NCBI GenBank assembly: GCA_002699145.1
Contig: PABK01000058.1
Location: 178,427-242,426, forward strand
Reading direction: 5' to 3'
Source: Halioglobus sp.
GTDB taxonomy: Bacteria > Pseudomonadota > Gammaproteobacteria > Pseudomonadales > Halieaceae
Length of the DNA stretch: 64,000 nucleotides
Below the pieces are notes generated by a model that was not told where the DNA came from, did not search any database, and saw nothing but the letters and a program-made list of their open reading frames with translations. Numbering within the stretch: the stretch's first letter is position 1; the number at the start of each line of letters is the position of its first letter. Of the stretch, positions 8,527 to 24,840 are shown piece by piece. The translations under genes were made by a program, and so were the position numbers.

Positions 8527-8644
8527 GCGGGCCTTGCCTTGCGCGGGCGCAGCGCATAGCATCGCTGACACTGCGGCGCACGCCAGGCGCGTGCCGCACG
8601 CAGCCGATACCGCCACTACAAAGAACGCTAACAAAGGTGACGCC

Positions 8645-9790
8645 ATGCGCTGGTTGAAAAGAGGTCTGCTCGCCCTGCTGGCGCTGCTGGCCATCGCCCT
8701 CACACTCATCGTGGCCACGGGCAATGTGCCCACGGCCAGGTTGCTGTACGATTTCGCCACCGGGGCGCCGGATGAGCCGTTTGATCCCGGCGACGCGGTG
8801 CCGCCCCCCGATTACGCGGACGAGCACAACTGGGCCGCGCTGCCGTCGCGACAGGACCTGGCCGACCTGGTCCCGGCCGGGGTCGAGCGCGGCGTGGCGC
8901 AGGGGCAGGCGCCGGTCGATGTGTTCTTCATCCACCCCACCGGGTTCCTCAAGGGCAGCAGCTGGACCTTCTCCATGGACGCGGACACGTCCACCGAGGA
9001 GAACACCCGCTGGATGATCGCCAACCAGGCCAGCCCCTACAACGGCTGCTGCAACGTGTACGCACCGCGCTACCGGCAGGCGTCCATCTATACCTATTTC
9101 GCCGCCGACGAGGCCACCCGCGAGGCGGTGCTGGGCTTCGCCTACACGGACGTCGAGCGCGCCTTCGACTACTTCCTGGCGCACTACAACCAGGGCCGCC
9201 CCTTCATCCTGGCCAGCCACAGCCAGGGCACGCACCACGGTATACGCCTGCTGCGGGAAAAAATTGACGGCACGCCGCTGGCCGCGCGCATGGTCGCCGC
9301 CTACCTGATCGGCGGCGGGCTGGAAACGGCGCAATTCGACGACCTGCAGGACATCGCGCTGTGCGACGCGCCGCGGCAGCTGCACTGCGCCGTGCACTGG
9401 GATACCTGGAGCGAGGCGGTGCGCGAGGACCAGGACCCGCTGCCCAATGTCTGCACCAACCCCCTGACCTGGCGCCTGGACGGCCCCCGGGCAGGACGCG
9501 AACAGCACGTCGGGGCCGTGCCCGATTCCGGCGAGTACCACGTCGAGCTGTCCGGCGACGACGCCGCCCGCGACGTGATTTTTGCACCCCACGACGCGCC
9601 ATTGCCAAAGCATGTCGAGGCGGAATGCGCCGGCGGCCGCCTGTTCGTCAGCGACCAGTCCGCCACGCCCTTCGGCGAGCGCGGCATCGCCGGCAACTAC
9701 CACGGTCTGGACTACACGCTGTTTTACATGGATATTCGCGAGAATGCGCAACTGCGGGTGGACGCCTACCTGCAGGAGGCATCACCATGA
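8645..9790 (+). CDS. DUF3089 family alpha/beta-hydrolase-like membrane-anchored protein
   Basis: A 381-residue protein. The ATG at 8645 is chosen because an AAAGGTGA binding site precedes it and an N-terminal signal anchor (about residues 6-25) follows directly. The remainder matches DUF3089: 'PVDVFFIHPTGFLKG', the paired 'NGCCNVYAPRYRQA', and the nucleophile elbow 'SHSQG' with Ser193. DUF3089 proteins are alpha/beta-hydrolase relatives of unproven substrate. Its stop overlaps the start of the cytochrome lipoprotein gene (ATGA at 9787-9790), so it is the first of four coupled genes ending with HupE and the anchor protein. The active site would face the periplasm. Confidence 0.85.
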   Translation: MRWLKRGLLALLALLAIALTLIVATGNVPTARLLYDFATGAPDEPFDPGDAVPPPDYADEHNWAALPSRQDLADLVPAGVERGVAQGQAPVDVFFIHPTGFLKGSSWTFSMDADTSTEENTRWMIANQASPYNGCCNVYAPRYRQASIYTYFAADEATREAVLGFAYTDVERAFDYFLAHYNQGRPFILASHSQGTHHGIRLLREKIDGTPLAARMVAAYLIGGGLETAQFDDLQDIALCDAPRQLHCAVHWDTWSEAVREDQDPLPNVCTNPLTWRLDGPRAGREQHVGAVPDSGEYHVELSGDDAARDVIFAPHDAPLPKHVEAECAGGRLFVSDQSATPFGERGIAGNYHGLDYTLFYMDIRENAQLRVDAYLQEASP

Positions 9791-10257
9791 AAAGAATTCA
9801 CGCTTGCTGCCTGCTCGCCCTGGCCGTCGCACTGCTCGCCGCCTGCGCGCAGGAGCCGCCGCCGCAGGAAGGGCCGCCCTACCGCCTGCTCACCGACCTG
9901 CACCAGACCATGGAATGGGTGCTGGAGCCGGCCGCCGAGGTGATCTGGGATTCCGCCGGGTTCATCATCACCGCCGACGGAGAGGAGGATTTATCGCCGG
10001 ACAGCGAGGCGGCGTGGGAGCGGGTGACCTGGGCCGCCGCGACCCTGGGCGAGTCGGGCAACCTGCTCATGTTGCCCGGCCGCGCCGCCGGCGACGACTG
10101 GGTGGAGTACGCCCAGGGCCTGGTCAGCGCCGCCGAGGGCGCCCTGCAGGCCGCCCGCGCGCGCGACGCCCAGGCGCTGTTCGATGCCGGCGGGCATATC
10201 TACCAGGTATGCCGCGCCTGCCACAACCAGTACTGGCCCGAAGCCCGCGACGACTGA
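9787..10257 (+). CDS. Lipoprotein mono-haem cytochrome c, possibly cytochrome c'-like
   Basis: A 156-residue lipoprotein: signal peptide with lipobox 'LLAAC' and the lipidated Cys20. One c-type haem site, CRACH (Cys142, Cys145, His146), lies near the C terminus. Haem attachment at the end of an otherwise helical domain, preceded by 'FDAGGHIYQV', is the layout of cytochrome c'/c556 four-helix bundles; that class is inferred, not proven. A strong AGGAGG lies eight bases before the ATG. It lies between the DUF3089 hydrolase (4-nt overlap) and hupE (1-nt overlap). It may carry electrons or sense gases in the periplasm. Confidence 0.8.
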   Translation: MKRIHACCLLALAVALLAACAQEPPPQEGPPYRLLTDLHQTMEWVLEPAAEVIWDSAGFIITADGEEDLSPDSEAAWERVTWAAATLGESGNLLMLPGRAAGDDWVEYAQGLVSAAEGALQAARARDAQALFDAGGHIYQVCRACHNQYWPEARDD

Positions 10258-10934
10258 TGCGGGCGCTGCCGGCCATCGCGCTCGTGGCGTTGTTCGCCGC
10301 CGCCCTGCCCGGCCAGGCCCACGATCTCTCCGCCGCCAACGCCGCCTTCGTGCAGGGCCTGCAGGGTGCGGCCACCGGGCCATTTCTCTACCTGGGCGCG
10401 AAACACATGGTCACCGGCGCGGATCACCTGCTGTTCCTGCTGGGCGTGATCTTCTTTCTCTACCGCGGGCGCGACATCCTGCTCTACGTCACCCTGTTCA
10501 CGCTCGGCCACAGCCTCACCCTGGTGCTGGGTGTGTGGGCGCAGTGGCAGGTCAATGCGCACCTGGTGGACGCGATCATCGGGCTGTCGGTGGTGTACAA
10601 GGCCTTCGAGAACATGGGCGGGTTTAAGCGCGTCTTCGGTGTCGCGCCCGACACGCGCATAGCGGTGTTCGTCTTTGGCCTGTTTCACGGCCTCGGGCTG
10701 GCGACGAAACTGCAGGGCCTTGTCGGCGACGATGGCCTGCTGCGCAACCTGCTCAGCTTCAACCTCGGCGTGGAGCTGGGACAGGCGCTCGCCCTGGGCC
10801 TGTTACTCGCGCTGCTGCTGGGCTGGCGCGCCAGGCCGCGCTTCGCGCAACAGGCTTTCGGCGCCAACGCGGTGCTGATGTGCGCCGGGTTCGTGCTCGC
10901 GGGCAACCAGTTCGCGGGGTACCTGTTCTCATGA
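10257..10934 (+). CDS. HupE/UreJ family metal permease
   Basis: A 225-residue membrane protein of the HupE/UreJ_2 type. A cleavable leader ends at 'GQAHDLS', and hallmark motifs follow: 'GAKHMVTGADHLLFLLGVIFFL', 'TLGHSLTL' and 'VFVFGLFHGLGLATKL', whose conserved His and Asp residues are the presumed metal ligands. HupE proteins import nickel in hydrogenase clusters and cobalt in others; no nickel enzyme is encoded nearby, so the metal is uncertain. Start and stop overlap its neighbours by one and four bases, so translation is coupled. About six transmembrane segments are expected after the leader. Confidence 0.88.
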   Translation: MRALPAIALVALFAAALPGQAHDLSAANAAFVQGLQGAATGPFLYLGAKHMVTGADHLLFLLGVIFFLYRGRDILLYVTLFTLGHSLTLVLGVWAQWQVNAHLVDAIIGLSVVYKAFENMGGFKRVFGVAPDTRIAVFVFGLFHGLGLATKLQGLVGDDGLLRNLLSFNLGVELGQALALGLLLALLLGWRARPRFAQQAFGANAVLMCAGFVLAGNQFAGYLFS

Positions 10935-11488
10935 GCGCGGCCCCGTCCGCCGCGAGCATCATTGCCGCCAGCGCAGCCGCGCTGGCGCTGGCGGCGCTAC
11001 TGCTGGTGACCCTCATCCTGCCCGCCGAGTACGGCTGGGACCCGCTGGGCAGCGGCGCGGCCCTGGGACTGCTCGACCTGGCCGGCAGCGAGGACTCGCC
11101 CCTGCGCGCGCAGGACGCGCCGTGGACGCGGGACGAGATCAGCTTCCGCCTGGCGCCCTTCGAGGCGGTGGAATACAAGTACCGCATGCGCGCCGGCGCG
11201 GTGCTGCTGTTCGACTGGCAGGCGCAGGGCGAGGTGGTGTACGACCTGCACGCGGAGCCGGACGGGGCGGCACCGGGTTTCGCCCAGAGTTTCGAGACGT
11301 CGCGCGCAGCCGCCGCCGCGGGCAGCTACAGCGCGCCCTTCGACGGCATCCATGGCTGGTTCTGGCAGAATCGCGGGGACCGCGAGATAACGCTGCGACT
11401 GCGCAGCAGCGGTTACTTCACCGCGGCGACGGAGTTGCGCGACGGGCGCAGCTTCCACTACGACCTCGCCGCCGATGTTCAGCCGTAG
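10931..11488 (+). CDS. Single-span membrane-anchored protein following HupE
   Basis: A 185-residue protein with one N-terminal membrane anchor (about residues 9-30, very rich in Ala and Leu) and a periplasmic beta-rich domain containing 'LLFDWQAQGEVVYDLHAEPDG' and 'GIHGWFWQNRG'. This resembles the family annotated only as transmembrane anchor protein that often follows hupE-type genes. Its ATG overlaps the hupE stop (ATGA), so the two products are probably made in fixed ratio and may form a complex. Its 3' end overlaps the convergent 48-residue gene by 10 bases. Function unknown. Confidence 0.75.
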   Translation: MSAAPSAASIIAASAAALALAALLLVTLILPAEYGWDPLGSGAALGLLDLAGSEDSPLRAQDAPWTRDEISFRLAPFEAVEYKYRMRAGAVLLFDWQAQGEVVYDLHAEPDGAAPGFAQSFETSRAAAAAGSYSAPFDGIHGWFWQNRGDREITLRLRSSGYFTAATELRDGRSFHYDLAADVQP

Positions 11489-11625
11489 GCCATCTCCAGC
11501 AGCTCGCGCACCGACTCGATTTCGCCCCACCAGTACATGACAAAACCCAGTACCACCGCGGCGCAGGCCAGCAGCGCCGCGCACTGCGCATCCCTTGCCT
11601 GGGCGTTACCCCGGTCCTCGTCCAC
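11479..11625 (-). CDS. 48-residue single-span membrane microprotein
   Basis: A short gene at the end of the PQQ dehydrogenase operon. A GTG start at 11623-11625 has a full AGGAGG six bases upstream, and that AGGAGG begins inside the TAG stop codon of the preceding DUF6644 gene, which indicates selected coupling. The product has an acidic N terminus, one hydrophobic helix (about residues 15-33, ending 'GFVMYWWG') and an acidic, amphipathic tail. It overlaps the convergent gene by 10 bases. No family is recognised. The form resembles small stabilising subunits of membrane oxidoreductases; that is speculation. Confidence 0.65.
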   Translation of the reverse strand: MDEDRGNAQARDAQCAALLACAAVVLGFVMYWWGEIESVRELLEMAYG

Positions 11626-11634
11626 GGCGACCTC

Positions 11635-12219
11635 CTAGCCGGAAAAACCGATCCAGCGCCCGGTGGCCGCCACCGAGAACCAGATCATCAGCGAAGCCAG
11701 CGCCACCAGGCGCAGCGTCCACGGGTGCACCGCGTCGGCGTGGCGCAGCAGCGGCCGCCGCACCAGGTACACGAACACGACGCCCACCGCCAACGCCAGC
11801 ATCTTGTACCAGAACACCGGCAGGTAATAGACCTTGACCGCCACGCCGCAGGCCATGAAGACGCCGCTGCACACGACCACCAGCAGGGCCCAGGCAAACA
11901 CCCGGTGGCAGCGCTGCTGCACCGTGGCCAGCGGCACTTCGCGCAGCAACAGGCCGAGCAGGCGCGCATCGGCGACCAGCACCGCGCCGCCGAGCAGGGC
12001 CATGGACAACAGGTGCAGCGCCTGCACCAGTGCGAACACGGCGCCCCAGGTCTTGCCGGCGACACCGAGCGGCGTCGTTTCCATCCACTCGAACAATGGC
12101 AGCAGCTCCTGCCAGGCCTGCAGGCGCCAGTCGGACAGTCCCAGCCAGGCGCCGGCAACAAGCAGCGCTGCGACCGCGGCGCTGCGGCTGTAGGGCAGGG
12201 AAAACGCGCTCACCGCCAC
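11635..12219 (-). CDS. DUF6644-type polytopic membrane protein (paralogue 1)
   Basis: A 194-residue membrane protein with about five hydrophobic segments. The central block 'LVQALHLLSMALLGGAVLVADARLLGL' followed by 'REVPL' matches the DUF6644 pattern and aligns with the next gene upstream, so the two are paralogues. The His in 'ALHLL' is shared by both and could bind haem or metal, which is unproven. The start is a GTG (12217-12219), three bases past the stop of its neighbour; a second GTG six bases on is an equally possible start. It is followed immediately by the 48-residue gene. Confidence 0.75.
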   Translation of the reverse strand: MAVSAFSLPYSRSAAVAALLVAGAWLGLSDWRLQAWQELLPLFEWMETTPLGVAGKTWGAVFALVQALHLLSMALLGGAVLVADARLLGLLLREVPLATVQQRCHRVFAWALLVVVCSGVFMACGVAVKVYYLPVFWYKMLALAVGVVFVYLVRRPLLRHADAVHPWTLRLVALASLMIWFSVAATGRWIGFSG

Positions 12220-12222
12220 CGC

Positions 12223-12792
12223 CTAGAACTGCGCCTGGCCGTCGATGCAGCCGGCCAGCGTGGCGATAAGGGGCGCCGGGGCGGCGCTGCAATCGAACCA
12301 GTCGTAGGCGATGAATCGCCCGCAAATGACGATCAATGCCCAGAAGACAAGGGACAGCGCCGCGCCCAGCCGCAGGCGCGCCGGTGCGCGCGCCGCGAGT
12401 TCCCAGCCGGCGGGCGCGGCGCGCAGGCGGCGGTGAAACAGCCAGGCGTTGAGCGCCGCCAGCAGCAGCAAAACCAGCTTGACGCGAAACCACAGGCTCT
12501 GCGCGGTGCGCACGGGAATGGCGTAGAACAGCAGCACGCCGGTGACGATCATCACGCTGAAGCCGACCAGCATGGGCAGGTTGAGACGCCTGGCGACGGC
12601 GCTGGCCGGCACATCCGTGAGCGCCAGGCCCAGCATGCGCAGGTCGATCAGGAACAGCATGCCCAGGCTGATCATCAGCGCCAGCACGTGGGTGGACTCG
12701 ACCCAGTTGTACAGGTAGTACGACTCGTGCAGCGCGGTGCTCCAGTCGTGGCCGTCCACCCAGACGGCGAAGTCGTAGATCCAGCGGTTCAA
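12223..12792 (-). CDS. DUF6644-type polytopic membrane protein (paralogue 2)
   Basis: A 189-residue membrane protein with about five hydrophobic segments. The N-terminal half carries the DUF6644 signature 'WVESTHVLALMISLGMLFLIDLRMLGLAL' and 'TDVP', matching paralogue 1 almost residue for residue in this stretch. It begins at a TTG codon, 17 bases after the DUF6152 gene, with only a weak ribosome binding site. Conserved His and Asp residues lie within the predicted helices. It probably works with paralogue 1, perhaps as a heterodimeric membrane component receiving electrons from the PQQ enzyme; this is inference from operon content. Confidence 0.75.
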   Translation of the reverse strand: MNRWIYDFAVWVDGHDWSTALHESYYLYNWVESTHVLALMISLGMLFLIDLRMLGLALTDVPASAVARRLNLPMLVGFSVMIVTGVLLFYAIPVRTAQSLWFRVKLVLLLLAALNAWLFHRRLRAAPAGWELAARAPARLRLGAALSLVFWALIVICGRFIAYDWFDCSAAPAPLIATLAGCIDGQAQF

Positions 12793-12809
12793 GTCGTCGT
12801 TCGCCCGCG

Positions 12810-13250
12810 CTAGCGGTCGCGCGGATCGGAGCCGTCTTTCGGCGCGCCGGTGCCCGAGGAGCCCATGAACACCCGGCGCCCGTCGGCGAAGATCAGGTCG
12901 CGGCCGTTGGCCTTGCAGGCGGGCTGGCAGCGCTTGTCCTTGGCCTGGTAGCCGCGCACGCGTATCTCACTGCCGATGGGCAGGGAGTTCTTGTGAATGC
13001 CCGAGCGCAGCAGCGTGTTCGGTGTACCGCCCTCCACCATCCAGTCCTCGGTACTACCGTCCTGCGCCACCACCGCCAGGTGAATCCACGCGTGGGGATT
13101 GATCCACTCCACCCGGGTCACCTTGCCCTCCAGCGTCACCGGCGCGTCCTTGTCGAACTCGGCGGAAAACGCGTGGTGGCCGCGCACCTGCCAGGACAGC
13201 AGCGCGACCAGCGGCAGCAGTGACAGGGCGATCAGTCTGGTGTGCAACAT
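12810..13250 (-). CDS. DUF6152 secreted protein
   Basis: A 146-residue exported protein. After the signal peptide, 'GHHAFSAEFDKDAPVTLEGKVTRVEWINPHAWI' gives the DUF6152 signature: an HH pair at the mature N terminus, the EFD motif and the NPHAW motif. The domain is probably a small OB-like beta barrel. The exposed His pair could bind metal, which is unproven. Two cysteines (in 'RCQPACKANG') may form a disulfide. A GAGGG motif precedes the ATG. DUF6152 proteins are frequently multi-copy in marine gammaproteobacteria and Acidobacteria and often neighbour PQQ enzymes, as here. Confidence 0.82.
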   Translation of the reverse strand: MLHTRLIALSLLPLVALLSWQVRGHHAFSAEFDKDAPVTLEGKVTRVEWINPHAWIHLAVVAQDGSTEDWMVEGGTPNTLLRSGIHKNSLPIGSEIRVRGYQAKDKRCQPACKANGRDLIFADGRRVFMGSSGTGAPKDGSDPRDR

Positions 13251-13253
13251 GGT

Positions 13254-14222
13254 TTATCCCTCTTCTTCCTGGCGCGCGCCGGCGAGAATATTCGGCAGCG
13301 CGTAGTTGCCCTCGTGGCAGGCGTACTCGTAGATCGGCCCCTCGCTGGCGCGCAGGGTCAGTTCGCCGCGCCAGGGCTGTCGGTAGATGCTGTCGTCGCT
13401 GACTTCGAACTGGTAGAGAATCTCGTCGTCGTTGAGCCGGGTAAATCGCTCCTCGACCACGCTGTCCTGGGTCATGAACAGCTGGTGCTTGATCGCCAGG
13501 CGCATGTTCTGCTGCGGGTGGAACTGCGTGGTGCGCACCACCAGGGTATCGCCCTCCCAGTGACCCAGGGAATCCCCCAGCCAGGGGCGCAGCGCCGGCG
13601 GCAGCGGGCTGGCGTTCAGGCGCACGGTGCGCACGTTGTGGTTCATCTCCACCAGGATGAAGACGTGGTCGCGGGACTGCACGAACTGGTAGTTGTTGTT
13701 GTACAGCACCGGCAGCATCGGCGGCCCGCCGGAGGAGCCGAAGCCCACCGTGCAGCGCTCGCCGTTGGGGCGCTCCTCGGGATTGTCGTGGCGGCTCATC
13801 ATGCGGTAACCGTTCCAGTAGAACCTGGCGCGGCCCCACAGTGTGTAAGGCACCTCGCCGTCGTCGGGCTCGACGATGATGGAGCTGCGCGGCTCGCCGC
13901 GCACGCGCAGCACACGCGTGCCGGGGTCGACCCAGAAGGAATTGTAGCCGCCGACATTTTCGCCCGCCTGCAAATCGCCCTCGGGCAGGTTGTCGATCTC
14001 CTCGAGCCGCTCGGCGCCGTTTTTCTCGATGAACGCGGCCTGCGCCTCGGTCAGCACCAGTTCCTCGATTTCATCCGGCCGCTTCAGTTCGGTCAGGGTG
14101 GCGCTGGTCCAGATGCCCTGCAGGTCCGGGTGGCCCCAGGGCATGCGCGGCGCCTGCCACTGCTGGGCTGTGGCCAGGGCGGGCAGCACCAGGCAGTACG
14201 CGGCAAACAGTCGTGCAATCAT
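13254..14222 (-). CDS. Secreted protein of unknown function, WEGDTLV family (copy 1)
   Basis: A 322-residue exported protein: signal peptide ('AAYCLVLPALATA'), then 'PWGHPDLQGIWTSATLT'. The later 'LGHWEGDTLVVRTT' motif is shared with the next upstream gene (there 'ARWEGDTLVIETT'), and both continue with an 'ERF.R' strand and 'PW' element, so they are distant paralogues. This family is widespread but uncharacterised. AAGGAGG lies about nine bases before the ATG. Only three bases separate it from the DUF6152 gene. A periplasmic role with the PQQ dehydrogenase is inferred from the operon. Confidence 0.75.
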   Translation of the reverse strand: MIARLFAAYCLVLPALATAQQWQAPRMPWGHPDLQGIWTSATLTELKRPDEIEELVLTEAQAAFIEKNGAERLEEIDNLPEGDLQAGENVGGYNSFWVDPGTRVLRVRGEPRSSIIVEPDDGEVPYTLWGRARFYWNGYRMMSRHDNPEERPNGERCTVGFGSSGGPPMLPVLYNNNYQFVQSRDHVFILVEMNHNVRTVRLNASPLPPALRPWLGDSLGHWEGDTLVVRTTQFHPQQNMRLAIKHQLFMTQDSVVEERFTRLNDDEILYQFEVSDDSIYRQPWRGELTLRASEGPIYEYACHEGNYALPNILAGARQEEEG

Positions 14223-14250
14223 GCGGTGTGGCCTCCTTCGAGCCGGCGAC

Positions 14251-15075
14251 TCAATCGAGGGGTTCCCTGCGCAGGTGCCCGTACATCAGTTCCTCGACGT
14301 ACTCGACGCAGTTGAACTGTAGCATGTTCTCGTCCGCGCCGACGCGCCGGTACAGGGGCATGCGAATCGTCCACGGGCGGGTGAACACCTGTGGGTCTTC
14401 CAGGGTCGCCGAGTAGTCGATGGTGTGATCCGAGGTGCGCACAAAACGCTCGGTCACCACGAGCTGGTCGCTGTGGTAATTGCCCGCGCGATCGAGCCAG
14501 GTGCGGTCGTTCATGCCGGTGGTCTCGATCACCAGCGTATCGCCTTCCCAGCGCGCCCAGGACTGGCCCATCCAGGAGTCGATGGGCGCCGGGCCCGGGT
14601 CGGACAGCGCCACATTGCGCACCGCCCCGGCATAGGCGTAGGAAAACAGCAACGCGTTGTCGTTGTGCACGATACGGAAGGGGTGCGGCATGTAGGTGGC
14701 GCGCGGGATGCCCGGCAGGTAGCAGTACACTTCCGGGTCGGCGCTCACCCAGTTGCGCGCGTTCTCCTCGCGCTGCGCCAGGGCGCCGGGCTTGTAGGGT
14801 ATTGCGCCGCCTTCGACCACACCCAGGCTGGGCGGCAGGGCGCCCACCGCGCCCAGCGCCACCAGTTCCTTCGCCGGCACCGGCACCACGGGCCCCTCGC
14901 GCATGACCTGGGCGGCGCGGCCCGGGTGCGCCTCGAGATTGTGGTTGGCGCTGTTGAGTACCTGCCAGACGCCGCTGAAGTCGACCTTGCCGCCGGCGGT
15001 GCGCGGCGGCTCGTAGGCCGCGACCTGGGCGGCGAGGAAGACCAGCATCGCCGGTATCAGTCTGGACGCTTTCAT
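14251..15075 (-). CDS. Secreted protein of unknown function, WEGDTLV family (copy 2)
   Basis: A 274-residue exported protein. The ATG at 15073-15075 has AGGAGA eight bases upstream and is directly followed by a signal peptide; a frame extending to 15192 lies inside the PQQ gene and is rejected. The mature part opens with 'GGKVDFSGVWQVLNS' (the same G-W element as copy 1's 'LQGIWTS') and carries 'WARWEGDTLVIETTGMNDRTWLD'. No cofactor motif is seen. It is the second gene of the operon, 19 bases behind the PQQ dehydrogenase, which makes a shared periplasmic task likely. Confidence 0.75.
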   Translation of the reverse strand: MKASRLIPAMLVFLAAQVAAYEPPRTAGGKVDFSGVWQVLNSANHNLEAHPGRAAQVMREGPVVPVPAKELVALGAVGALPPSLGVVEGGAIPYKPGALAQREENARNWVSADPEVYCYLPGIPRATYMPHPFRIVHNDNALLFSYAYAGAVRNVALSDPGPAPIDSWMGQSWARWEGDTLVIETTGMNDRTWLDRAGNYHSDQLVVTERFVRTSDHTIDYSATLEDPQVFTRPWTIRMPLYRRVGADENMLQFNCVEYVEELMYGHLRREPLD

Positions 15076-15094
15076 TATCGTTGTCTCCTGCAGT

Positions 15095-17059
15095 TCAATC
15101 GGTTTGCGGCGCCCGCGGCAGGGCAAAGGCCACCAGGTGGTCGCCCGGCGGACTGCCGCCGGCCCAGTGACCGCCGGCCGCGATGACCACAAACTGCCGG
15201 CCGCCGGGGCGCACCTGGTAGGTCATGGGCAGGGCGTTGCCCGCCGTCGGCAGGTCGCCGCGCCACAGCTCCTGCCCGGTGCGCACATCGAAGGCGCGCA
15301 GCACGTGCTCGTTGGATACCCCGGCAAACACCAGCCCGGTGGCGGTCAGCATGGGCCCGGCCATGCCCGGCAGCCCCTCTATCCACCAGAAGGGGAAAGG
15401 GGCCAGGTCACGGGTGGTGCCCATCGGCACACTCCACAGCGTGCGCCCGGCGACCAGGTCGATGGCGTCCAGCGTACCCCAGGGCGGCGCGGTGCAGGGC
15501 AGTCCCAGCGGCGACATCAGCCAGCCCGCGTCCACGCAGTAGGGCGTGCCCTCCTGGAGCTGCATGCTCCCGGCACATTGCTCGCGCGGGATCAACCGCG
15601 TGAAGCCGGGTACGCGATTGGTGTGCACCACCATGACGCCGCTGTCCGGGTCGATCGCGGGCGAGCCCCAGTTGTTGCCGCCGGCGTTGCTCGGGTAATT
15701 GATACTGCCCTGCAACGACGGCGGCGTGTAGATGCCATCGTTGTGCATATCGCGCAGTTTGTCGGCGCAGTGCCCGCGGTCCCAGAAAGTCAGGCCCCAG
15801 GCCATCTCCGGCGTCAGCGGTCCCTCCACGGTGTAGGGCACGTGGCTGGGAAAGGGCTGCGTCGGCGACAGGTACTCGCCCGGGACCAGGCCCCGCTGCG
15901 GCACCGGGCGCTCCTGGACCGGCCACAGCGGTTCGCCGGTCTGCCGGTTGAGCACGAAGGTCATGCCCATCTTGGTCACCTGCACCAGGGCGGGAACAGC
16001 TTCGCCGTCGACGGTCAGCGTCACCAGCGTCGGCTGCGCCGGGGTGTCGTAGTCCCACAGGTCGTGGTGCACGAACTGGTAGTGCCAGGCGACCTCGCCG
16101 CTGTCGGCGTGCAGCGCGACCACGGAACTGGAATAGTGGTCCAGTCCCTGGCGGTGCCCGCCGTAGTAGTCCGGCGTGGTGTTGCCCGTGGGCAGGTAGA
16201 CCAGCCCCAGCTCCTCGTCGGCGGCGATGATGGACCACACGTTGGTGGTGCCGGCGCGCCAGGTACCGTCCGCGTTGCGCGCCGGCGTACCCGGCGGCAC
16301 CGCGCTGAACGCCCACTCCAGCGCGCCGCTGCGTATGTTGTAGGCGCGCACCACGCCGCCGGGGGAGTCGGTGCGCTGGTTGTCCAGCACCATGGAGCCG
16401 GTGACCAGGCGGTCGCCGATGATCGCCGGCGGCGAGGTAATGCCGTACTCGCCGGGGTGGTGCGCCGAGAGGCCGTCGCTGGTATCGACCTGCCCGCCGT
16501 CACCGAAGTCCGGGCAGGGCCGCCCGCTGGCGGCGTCCAGCGCGATCAGGCGCGCATCGAAGGTGCCGAACACGATACGGTGCTCGCAAAAACCCTCGGC
16601 GCCGCTGCGCCAGCTGCTGACCCCGCGGCAGTTCGGCAACACCGGCACCTCGTCCATGTTCACCCCGGGGTCATAGGACCACAGTTCCGCGCCGCTCTGG
16701 GCATCCAGGGCGAAGACGCGGTTGAACGGGGTGCAGTAGTACAGGCGGTCCTGCACCACGATGGGGGTGACCTGCATGGAGCTCTGCGACAATCCGGGAG
16801 GCGGTCCGTCGCGCTGCGCCTCGCGGTAGTCGCCCGAGCGGTGCGTCCAGGCGACCTGCAGCGCGGCGACATTGTCCGGGGTGATCTGGTTGGCGCGGGA
16901 AAAATGACTGCCGCCAGCGCTGGCGCCGTAAGCGGGCCAGTCGGCGGCCACGCCCGGCGGCGGCGCCTGCAGCGTGGTCGCCTTGCACGCCACCAGCAGC
17001 GGCAGCGCCAGGCAGGCCGCCAGCGCGCTGAAAATGCGCTGCCCTGTGTAATTATTCAC
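15095..17059 (-). CDS. PQQ-dependent dehydrogenase, lipoprotein
   Basis: A 654-residue quinoprotein of the glucose/quinate dehydrogenase group without the usual N-terminal membrane domain; instead it has a lipoprotein signal with Cys25 in 'LLVACK'. The mature start 'DWPAYGASAGGSHFSRANQI' is the first propeller blade. 'YYCTPFNRVFALDAQSGAELW' and 'RGVSSW' are conserved in PQQ enzymes, as are repeated 'W.Y' tryptophan-docking elements further on. It would oxidise an alcohol, sugar or cyclic polyol in the periplasm; the substrate is unknown. There is no fused cytochrome c domain, so electrons must leave through partners, possibly the DUF6644 proteins. The start is GTG at 17057-17059. It heads a seven-gene operon. 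No pqq biosynthesis genes are in the window. Confidence 0.88.
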   Translation of the reverse strand: MNNYTGQRIFSALAACLALPLLVACKATTLQAPPPGVAADWPAYGASAGGSHFSRANQITPDNVAALQVAWTHRSGDYREAQRDGPPPGLSQSSMQVTPIVVQDRLYYCTPFNRVFALDAQSGAELWSYDPGVNMDEVPVLPNCRGVSSWRSGAEGFCEHRIVFGTFDARLIALDAASGRPCPDFGDGGQVDTSDGLSAHHPGEYGITSPPAIIGDRLVTGSMVLDNQRTDSPGGVVRAYNIRSGALEWAFSAVPPGTPARNADGTWRAGTTNVWSIIAADEELGLVYLPTGNTTPDYYGGHRQGLDHYSSSVVALHADSGEVAWHYQFVHHDLWDYDTPAQPTLVTLTVDGEAVPALVQVTKMGMTFVLNRQTGEPLWPVQERPVPQRGLVPGEYLSPTQPFPSHVPYTVEGPLTPEMAWGLTFWDRGHCADKLRDMHNDGIYTPPSLQGSINYPSNAGGNNWGSPAIDPDSGVMVVHTNRVPGFTRLIPREQCAGSMQLQEGTPYCVDAGWLMSPLGLPCTAPPWGTLDAIDLVAGRTLWSVPMGTTRDLAPFPFWWIEGLPGMAGPMLTATGLVFAGVSNEHVLRAFDVRTGQELWRGDLPTAGNALPMTYQVRPGGRQFVVIAAGGHWAGGSPPGDHLVAFALPRAPQTD

Positions 17060-22590: not shown

Positions 22591-24840
22591 ATGCCCCACC
22601 GACTTTTTCGCGGCCTGCCCGCCCTGTTCCTGCTCTGCCTGGCCTGCCTGCCGCTGCGGGCGGACACCGACTACCCGCCGCAGGTCTCCCCCATCGTGGA
22701 AAACCGCTGCATGGTCTGCCACGGCTGTTACGACGCGCCCTGCCAGTTGAAACTCGACGCCTGGGCGGGGGTGCAGCGCGGCGCCAGCAAGGACAAGGTC
22801 TACGACGGCACGCGCCTGCTCACCGCCAACCTGACGCGCCTGTTCGACGACGCCAGCGACACGGCGGGCTGGCGCGACAAGGGTTTCTACCCGGTGCTCG
22901 ACGAACGGCGGCCGCAGGCGGGCGTCATGGCGCGCATGCTGAACCTGAAACGCCAGCATCCCCTGCCCGCGGGCGACATCCTGCCGGACAGTTTCGACCT
23001 CGGCCTGGATCGCCAACAACAGTGTCCGAAAGCCGACGAGTTTGACGCTTTCGCCCGGGACTACCCGCTGTGGGGCATGCCCTACGCGATGCCGGCGCTG
23101 TCCGACGCGGAGCACGCCACGCTGGCGGACTGGTTGCAGGCTGGCGCCCCCGGTGTGGCCACAGCGCCCCCCGGCAAGGCCGAGCGTGAAGCCCTGCGCC
23201 AGTGGGAGCGGTTCTTCAATGGCAGCAGCCTGAAAGAGCAGCTCATGTCGCGCTATATCTACGAGCACCTGTTCATCGGCGCCCTGTACTTCGCCGACCT
23301 GCCGGATTCGCGCTACTACGAGATGGTGCGTTCGCGCACGCCGCCGGGACAGCCCATCGACACCATCGCCACCCGGCGCCCCTACGACTCGCCGGGGACC
23401 GAGCCCTTCTACTACCGCCTGCGCCCGGCGCGCACCACGCCCCTGGCCAAGCGGCACATGCCCTACGCGCTGGACGCGGCGCGCATGACGCGCTGGCGCG
23501 AGCTGTTCCTGGCGCCGCAGTACACGGTGAGCGAGCTGCCCTCCTACAGCACGCGCGTTGCGTCCAACCCGTTCGTCGCCTTCCGCGAATTGCCGCAGCT
23601 GAGCCGCTACCGTTTCATGCTCGACGAGGCGCAGTTCACAATCATGGGGTTCATCAAGGGGCCGGTGTGTCGCGGCCAGGTGGCGTTGAACGTCATCGAC
23701 GACCATTTCTGGGTCGTGTTCATCGACCCGAACGACCAGTCCGCGCAGTCATCGGCTGACTTCCTCGCCCAGGAGAGCGGCAACCTGCGCATGCCCAGCG
23801 GCGACAGCGGCCTGCTGGTGTCCCTGGTGGAATGGCGCAAGTACGCGAAAAACCAGTTGCAGTTTCTCAAGGCGAAGATGGATTTCATTGCGCGCCAGGT
23901 CAGCGCGGAAGACGTGGCGGTGGACCTGGGCCTGATCTGGGACGGCGACGGCGACAACGACAACGCCTCGCTTACGGTCTTCCGCCATTCCGACAGCGCC
24001 TCGGTGGTCAAGGGCCTGGTCGGCCGCTACCCGAAAACCGCCTGGGTGATCGACTACTCGCTGCTGGAGCGCATCCACTACCTGCTGGTGGCGGGTTTCG
24101 ATGTCTATGGCAACGTCGGCCACCAGCTGGAAACCCGCCTGTACATGGACTTCCTGCGCATGGAGGGCGAACAGAACTTCCTGCTGTTCCTGCCGGAAGC
24201 GGAGCGCCTGAAACTGCGCGACTACTGGTACCGCGGCGCGGCGGAGCACGCGAAAAAGTACGTGCTGGGCGACTCGGTCGCCTTCGACCGCGACACGGAC
24301 ATCCAGTACCACAGCGACAACCACAAGGTCGAGCTGATGGACATGCTGAAACAGCGGCAGTACGGCGCGCAGGCGGCGCGCTACCACGTGGACAATGCGC
24401 TGTTACAGCGCCTGGCACGGCAGACCGGGGCCAATCTCAGCTTCCTGCCGGAGGTGGCGTTCCTGGATGTGCTGCACAAGGACGGCCGCTCCAGCATCTA
24501 CTCCCTGGTACACACCAACGGCTTCACGAACAACGCACAGCTGTTCAAGGAGGAGCAGCGGCGCCTGCCGGACGAGGACTACGTGAGCGTGGTCAGCGGC
24601 TTTATCGGCGCCTACCCCAACGTGTTTTTCCAGCTGCCGGAGAGCGACCTGGCGTCTTTCGTCGACGCTATCGCGGCGCTGGACAGCGACAAGGCCTACG
24701 CCGCGCTGGTGTCGCGCTACGGCGTGCGGCGCAGCGCGCCGTGGTTCTGGTCGCTCAGCGACAAGCTGCGCGCGCGCTATGCGCAGGAGCAGCCGCTGGA
24801 GGCGGGCCTGTTCGACCTCAACCGCTATGAGAACCGCTAA
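22591..24840 (+). CDS. cti: Fatty acid cis/trans isomerase (haem c protein)
   Basis: A 749-residue periplasmic enzyme of the Cti family. A signal peptide is followed by a c-type haem site CMVCH (Cys40, Cys43, His44) in the family-specific context 'CMVCHGCYDAPCQL'. Later conserved elements include 'YIYEHLFIGALYF', 'MPYALDAARM' and 'FIGAYPNVFFQL'. Cti converts cis- to trans-unsaturated fatty acids in membrane phospholipids, a fast response to solvents, heat or salt, known in Pseudomonas and Vibrio. Length and motifs are normal, so it should be active. It is transcribed divergently from rhlE and ends six bases from the convergent binding-protein gene. Confidence 0.95.
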   Translation: MPHRLFRGLPALFLLCLACLPLRADTDYPPQVSPIVENRCMVCHGCYDAPCQLKLDAWAGVQRGASKDKVYDGTRLLTANLTRLFDDASDTAGWRDKGFYPVLDERRPQAGVMARMLNLKRQHPLPAGDILPDSFDLGLDRQQQCPKADEFDAFARDYPLWGMPYAMPALSDAEHATLADWLQAGAPGVATAPPGKAEREALRQWERFFNGSSLKEQLMSRYIYEHLFIGALYFADLPDSRYYEMVRSRTPPGQPIDTIATRRPYDSPGTEPFYYRLRPARTTPLAKRHMPYALDAARMTRWRELFLAPQYTVSELPSYSTRVASNPFVAFRELPQLSRYRFMLDEAQFTIMGFIKGPVCRGQVALNVIDDHFWVVFIDPNDQSAQSSADFLAQESGNLRMPSGDSGLLVSLVEWRKYAKNQLQFLKAKMDFIARQVSAEDVAVDLGLIWDGDGDNDNASLTVFRHSDSASVVKGLVGRYPKTAWVIDYSLLERIHYLLVAGFDVYGNVGHQLETRLYMDFLRMEGEQNFLLFLPEAERLKLRDYWYRGAAEHAKKYVLGDSVAFDRDTDIQYHSDNHKVELMDMLKQRQYGAQAARYHVDNALLQRLARQTGANLSFLPEVAFLDVLHKDGRSSIYSLVHTNGFTNNAQLFKEEQRRLPDEDYVSVVSGFIGAYPNVFFQLPESDLASFVDAIAALDSDKAYAALVSRYGVRRSAPWFWSLSDKLRARYAQEQPLEAGLFDLNRYENR

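Follow-up and report, generated by a model that had tools for sequence, protein, structure and literature searches.

A 64,000-nucleotide stretch of a Halioglobus sp. genome (contig PABK01000058.1, positions 178,427 to 242,426; hereafter the window, numbered from its first letter) carries on its minus strand, from 17059 down to 11479, seven open frames encoding a pyrroloquinoline quinone (PQQ) dehydrogenase, two secreted WEGDTLV proteins (WEG1 and WEG2), a DUF6152 protein, a tandem pair of DUF6644 membrane proteins and a 48-residue membrane protein. Comparison with other genomes shows that the core unit consists of the WEGDTLV proteins, DUF6152, the DUF6644 pair and a c-type cytochrome encoded beside the operon, and that the PQQ enzyme is an optional partner. 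From this arrangement we infer, tentatively and at slightly less than even confidence, a periplasmic oxidation module whose electrons would exit through cytochrome c and the HemJ/CopD-like membrane pair.

Conservation of the gene unit

The seven frames lie head to tail with gaps of 19, 28, 3, 17, 3 and 9 bases, which bears out the one-strand operon with spacings of 3-28 bases proposed in the original prediction. They encode a PQQ dehydrogenase lipoprotein of 654 residues with a GTG start (15095-17059), WEG1 (274 residues, 14251-15075), WEG2 (322 residues, 13254-14222), the DUF6152 protein (146 residues, 12810-13250), DUF6644-A (12223-12792), DUF6644-B (11635-12219) and the single-span 48-residue protein (11479-11625). 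Meeting the operon tail to tail is a plus-strand set at 9787-11488, comprising a lipoprotein-like c-type cytochrome of 156 residues (CYT, 9787-10257), a membrane protein assigned by Pfam to HupE/UreJ_2 (HUP, 10257-10934) and an anchor protein with a single span in the hydropathy profile (ANC, 10931-11488), for which the protein family libraries gave nothing above cut-off. The Pfam scan matched DUF6152 at 114 bits and DUF6644 twice, at 38 and 179 bits (cut-off 27); Pfam and NCBIfam held no family above cut-off for WEG1, WEG2 or the 48-residue protein.

Relatives of WEG1 were sought by an alignment scan of named genomes, and the best 80 of at least 587 were taken; this sample leans to close relatives, and none of the neighbourhood counts is corrected for relatedness. 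Genes at the fetched loci (L numbers; genomes have G numbers) were called by a simple composition score, and the window's own proteins served as seeds for the neighbourhood profiles. Counts are given for the 62 loci with at least 5 kb downstream of WEG1, 18 of the 80 with less being left out. By record title, 45 of these belong to Gammaproteobacteria or unspecified Proteobacteria, 15 to Acidobacteria, and one each to Delta- and Alphaproteobacteria. Within 6 kb of WEG1, DUF6152 was present in 56 loci, the cytochrome in 42 and WEG2 in 36, followed by HupE/UreJ (28), the anchor protein (28), DUF6644-A and DUF6644-B (26 each) and the 48-residue protein (6). HupE/UreJ and the anchor were confined to the gamma/unspecified group. 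No recognised PQQ enzyme lay within the same distance in 53 of the 62 loci, and the idea that this enzyme is the centre of the system, as first proposed, was therefore rejected. Because DUF6152 and the cytochrome recur far more often than the PQQ enzyme, the unit is wider than originally described and centred elsewhere.

Four SAR86 loci (L148, L163, L187 and L198) carry WEG1, WEG2, DUF6152, cytochrome, DUF6644-A and DUF6644-B in this order on one strand, with WEG2 in two copies in L148 and L163; a fifth (L201) holds WEG1 and DUF6152 only, and its contig ends soon after. On this gene order, and on the recurrence of the cytochrome around WEG1 relatives, we count the cytochrome as a core member. 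The 61 distinct cytochrome-family frames, CYT among them, all have the CxxCH motif, in CYT as a C-terminal CRACH; CYT matches Pfam cytochrome c' (PF01322) weakly, at 21.7 bits against a cut-off of 26.5. That electrons from the dehydrogenase "must leave by another path", as stated earlier, is not a necessary conclusion, since this c-type cytochrome gene adjoins the operon. Most of the genes proposed to form one system do lie in a conserved unit, but the cytochrome, left out of that proposal, also belongs to it.

The seven-gene order of the window is found again in L142, L143 and L145; the contig of L144 shows the same order up to the point where it ends. The PQQ enzyme heads the operon in all four. 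All ten genes stand in the window's arrangement in L142 and L143, and nine of the ten in L147 (Candidatus Litorirhabdus singularis IMCC14734), where the PQQ gene is missing; the anchor set was not found in L145. CYT, HUP and ANC travel with the operon. The 48-residue frame, whose 3' end overlaps the end of the convergent ANC gene by 10 bases, is very likely a real gene, as had been supposed, because relatives sit after the DUF6644 pair in other loci: strong ones in 5 of the 80 (L142, L143, L145, L146 and L147; E at most 1e-22), with weaker relatives in L185 (Povalibacter uvarum DSM 26723; E 3e-8) and L220 (E 2e-4). L147 and L185 both come from cultured relatives that carry the core together with the cytochrome.

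The association of the two DUF families was also examined in 329 genomes drawn evenly from the phylum. Of these, 25 held DUF6644 and 34 held DUF6152, and all 25 genomes with DUF6644 held both (hypergeometric probability 2.4e-30, not corrected for relatedness). Thirty of 35 DUF6644 matches lay within 5 kb of a DUF6152. Of the remaining five, two form a tandem pair at a distance of 31 kb in G584, two a pair on a separate contig in G602, and one, in G477, lies 92 kb away. Draws that included the window's own genome gave DUF6644 in 2 and DUF6152 in 6 of 229 genomes of the class, and DUF6152 in 19 of 145 genomes of the order. A neighbourhood search of the kind called for in the original prediction thus upheld a DUF6644/DUF6152 unit conserved beyond close kin, but not a regular place in it for the PQQ enzyme.

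The DUF6644 tandem pair

Hydropathy analysis gave four spans in each of the two window copies. The His that they had been said to share lies in the first span and is present in 107 of 107 distinct DUF6644 sequences. The same holds for one Gly and one Lys, and a DLR motif and a W...GR-type motif come close to invariance in this set. Profiles were built from these 107 sequences, from 28 HemJ sequences (2 of 30 shorter than 120 residues having been dropped) and from 14 CopD sequences, whose loci were picked as non-HemJ. DUF6644 matched HemJ with E 9.8e-5 (probability 58) and CopD with E 4.8e-5 (probability 68), about equal to the distance between HemJ and CopD themselves (E 3.1e-5, probability 73); the HupE/UreJ and anchor controls gave E 0.34 and 0.15. 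DUF6644-A alone matched HemJ with E 2e-5. In Pfam HemJ (UPF0093, cut-off 34.2 bits) DUF6644-A scored 18.9, below the cut-off, and DUF6644-B was not listed.

This profile evidence makes DUF6644 distantly related to HemJ and CopD, a kinship that speaks more for a redox role than for an unrelated channel. The possibility that the DUF6644 proteins have nothing to do with redox function, being for example ion channels, had been named as fatal to the original prediction; the similarity to HemJ and CopD argues against it, and it was set aside. The title of a work cited by PMC11426539 and PMC11662147 describes HemJ as a b-type haem protein. The profile alignment places the first-span His and a later-span Lys of DUF6644 on a His and a Lys of HemJ; DUF6644 differs from HemJ in its partners and in its tandem pairing, and haem in DUF6644 is a prediction.

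A tree of the 107 sequences contained 38 tandem pairs. The pair is, judged from this tree, old and its order mostly kept, because the first genes of 32 pairs share one clade (support 0.966). The clade includes one single gene and no second gene, and six first genes fall outside it.

DUF6152 and the WEGDTLV proteins

Among 161 distinct DUF6152 frames, HisHis occurs near the start in 159; in 155, a signal-peptidase-like small-x-small motif stands immediately before it. This position predicts a His-His start for the mature protein, encoded in the window by codons from 13178 downwards; the His pair itself, pointed out earlier, is confirmed in the sequence. Among 146 DUF6152 sequences selected for HisHis, in which the count for columns 1 and 2 is circular (the 161-frame count is not), Pro28-His29 is invariant (146 of 146) and His33 is found in 67. 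A WEGDTLV domain is fused behind DUF6152 in 32 of the 161 frames.

The structural model of the DUF6152 protein (predicted local distance difference test (pLDDT) 85, predicted TM-score (pTM) 0.78, with a pLDDT of just 67 for the first ten residues) has OB folds as its structural matches, the best with E 4.8e-4. No CopC was among the 50 matches listed. The CopC fold is a beta-sandwich, not an OB fold, and a CopC-type copper site in DUF6152 was set aside as the main claim because the model fold differs. The window resembles the CopC-CopD system in having a CopD-like membrane protein beside a small periplasmic His protein, but differs from it in the modelled OB fold of DUF6152, for which copper binding is hypothetical.

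One genus of the order has genomes of about 2 Mb with at least 31, at least 31 and at least 20 DUF6152 copies (G251, G290 and G350; loci L043-L047 and L056-L062). Many of these copies are fused before a WEGDTLV domain and, by eye, lie among catabolic genes.

WEG1 and WEG2 align with 26% identity, which agrees, along with their lack of an above-cut-off family, with the description of two related secreted proteins of no known function. The WEG1 model is beta-rich (pLDDT 88, pTM 0.85). Its best structural matches are weak and of two kinds, lipocalin-like barrels (nitrophorin, E 0.039; retinol-binding protein, probability 0.85) and hot-dog folds, so that a ligand barrel is only a guess from the model. 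Glu, Arg, Tyr and two Cys are invariant in an alignment of 111 WEGDTLV sequences and would suit an enzyme too. The only matches to WEG1 in a plasmid search were partial ones, from 6 Novosphingobium records, each below 60% identity. In literature of partial coverage we found no publication on DUF6152, DUF6644 or WEGDTLV, and nothing on CopD-HemJ or Steroidobacter-PQQ.

The PQQ dehydrogenase

The dehydrogenase matches the PQQ propeller (PF01011) at 750 bits, over the Pfam cut-off of 26.7. With TIGR03074, the membrane glucose/quinate dehydrogenase, it scores 679.1 bits, below the cut-off of 832.65; the match covers model positions 150-783, the first part of the model being absent. An LVAC lipobox is seen directly in the sequence, and the only hydrophobic segment, at residues 9-27, leaves no N-terminal membrane domain. 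These features bear out the description of a lipid-anchored, soluble-type enzyme without the membrane domain of Gcd. Identity with Escherichia coli Gcd is 41% over 637 aligned positions. Of 11 Gcd positions compared, some of which may lie outside the active site, six agree (266, 404, 424, 466, 493 and 775, including the catalytic Asp466 and Lys493) and five differ (262, 601, 607, 730 and 771). The window enzyme is thus like Gcd in its propeller type and agrees with it at several putative active-site positions, but is unlike it in having a lipid anchor in place of the N-terminal membrane domain and in scoring below the family cut-off.

In the Gluconobacter-type glycerol/sorbitol dehydrogenase SldAB, a soluble PQQ subunit works with a separately encoded membrane subunit, SldB, a relative of the Gcd membrane domain. 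SldAB resembles the window in this division into a soluble PQQ subunit and a separate membrane part; the window differs in having two HemJ/CopD-like proteins and secreted proteins without a known counterpart.

The link of the PQQ enzyme to the module recurs but is optional. WEG1, DUF6152, the DUF6644 pair and a PQQ enzyme occur together in L126, L129, L130, L142, L143, L145, L187, L191 and L204. In L126, L129 and L130, from another class of the phylum, the PQQ enzyme precedes WEG1 and DUF6152, with a divergent DUF6644 pair facing it; a second PQQ-related protein lies nearby, which in L126, the one tested, combines cytochrome and PQQ domains. A cytochrome-PQQ protein adjoins WEG2 in L125. The SAR86 locus L187 has a PQQ-type protein on the other strand after the DUF6644 pair, and in the Acidobacteria loci L191 and L204 a PQQ enzyme precedes the WEG1 match by about 1.5 kb.

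The host genome contains four matches across the whole PQQ model, plus shorter ones. Of the biosynthesis genes sought in this genome, pqqB gave no match and pqqE none above cut-off; the search did not extend to pqqC and pqqD. Because several PQQ dehydrogenase genes stand beside these negative results, the host may depend on PQQ from outside.

Neighbouring genes

Directly before the cytochrome gene is a DUF3089 gene (8534-9790, plus strand), and a DUF3089 relative lies near the module in L211, in a cluster present in five loci. The segment 5646-8526 holds Pirin, glutathione-transferase-like and LysR genes; a similar transferase-like gene stands just upstream of WEG1 in L167. A fatty acid cis/trans isomerase (PF06934, 886 bits) is encoded at 22591-24840 on the plus strand. 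Around WEG1 in L168, L181 and their kin we found a GMC oxidoreductase cluster (14 loci) and a gluconate 2-dehydrogenase subunit 3 cluster (12 loci), each identified by Pfam from one member; they are not claimed as module partners, because many of these loci look like close kin.

Stand-alone DUF6152-DUF6644 pairs were seen in other Proteobacteria (L063-L067, L136-L141, L086 and L090). By eye, a histidine-phosphatase-like gene follows the pair in L141, L086 and L090 and precedes it in L139.

Several loci have hydrolase genes near the module: the window has one for DUF3089, L129 one for a carboxylesterase, L122 one for Abhydrolase_10 and L191 one for a beta-lactamase-family protein. They would suit ester-derived substrates.

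Discussion

In the periplasmic oxidation module that we tentatively favour, the dehydrogenase, or elsewhere another enzyme, would oxidise an alcohol-, lactol- or ester-derived substrate that the WEGDTLV proteins bind or process in the periplasm. Electrons would pass to the cytochrome, to the DUF6644-A/B pair or to both. As a HemJ/CopD relative, the pair would hold b-type haem on its invariant His and feed the quinone pool or an oxidase, replacing the role of the N-terminal membrane domain in the classic glucose dehydrogenase. DUF6152 may carry a metal ion at its mature His-His end and act as a small carrier or as a cofactor partner of a WEGDTLV protein, with which it shares one polypeptide in some bacteria. 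A broader version of the same proposal appears rather doubtful to us: an undescribed redox module of Gammaproteobacteria (including SAR86), Acidobacteria and others, in which a DUF6644-A/B heterodimer of the HemJ/CopD superfamily would be the common point where electrons from interchangeable periplasmic oxidases enter the membrane. A cytochrome of its own would belong to such a module, a WEGDTLV barrel would present or convert hydrophobic substrates, and an OB-fold DUF6152 would carry metal on an N-terminal His-His site.

Several observations weigh against the oxidation module. A PQQ enzyme lies within 6 kb of WEG1 in just 9 of the 62 loci (11 of all 80) and was absent from the first 29 loci fetched in the order and class, and the host genome may lack its own PQQ unless the cofactor is taken up. 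The unit is not always intact: 6 of the 62 loci hold none of DUF6152, cytochrome, DUF6644 and the anchor set, 16 of 49 loci fetched by place are DUF6152-DUF6644 pairs with no other module profile, and L123 and L127 carry a DUF6644 pair with no DUF6152 nearby. DUF6644-B alone matched HemJ with only E 0.024, no solved structure reached E 0.001 with the WEG1 model, and no known metal-carrier protein was among the 50 structural matches listed for DUF6152. HupE/UreJ-like and CopD-like partners would also suit metal handling.

Metal or haem handling is the strongest rival, although we consider it unlikely. CopC and CopD are thought to move copper across the inner membrane; here the N-terminal His residues of DUF6152 would bind copper or another metal, DUF6644 and the HupE/UreJ-like protein would move it across the inner membrane, and periplasmic enzymes would be loaded, the PQQ enzyme being a client. 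The predicted His-His end (155 of 161 frames) and the invariant Pro-His (146 of 146) of DUF6152 suit this explanation, as do the nearly equal closeness of DUF6644 to CopD and HemJ, the HUP relatives in 28 of the 62 loci and a short protein with a TPTCGCC motif, presumably DUF411-like, upstream of the pair in L055. Against it, more loci have the cytochrome (42 of 62) than have HupE/UreJ, whose 28 loci are all gamma or unspecified Proteobacteria; the OB fold modelled for DUF6152 differs from the CopC fold; and by eye there are no consistent metal genes around the stand-alone DUF6152-DUF6644 pairs.

Somewhat less probable again is that the WEGDTLV-DUF6152 pair is itself an enzyme, reused for different catabolic substrates, with the cytochrome and DUF6644 as accessories. 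The 32 fusions, the multiplication of DUF6152 among catabolic genes in the many-copy genus and the invariant Glu, Arg, Tyr and Cys of WEGDTLV are in its favour, but structural matches of both models gave no known catalytic fold, and the membrane pair and cytochrome are left unexplained. A chance arrival of the PQQ gene, in a single lineage, beside a conserved WEGDTLV-DUF6152 cluster with which it shares no function is improbable: the rarity of the enzyme near WEG1 would agree with it, but the identical seven-gene order in L142, L143, L145 and (to the contig end) L144, and the other PQQ arrangements in another class, a SAR86 locus and Acidobacteria, speak against it.

Three families without a known function, DUF6152, DUF6644 and WEGDTLV, are thus joined to a cytochrome, and at times to a PQQ enzyme, in a single gene unit whose lineages include SAR86 and Acidobacteria. 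If the periplasmic oxidation module is real, it would provide a new link from periplasmic oxidation to the respiratory chain, and would give these genes testable roles.

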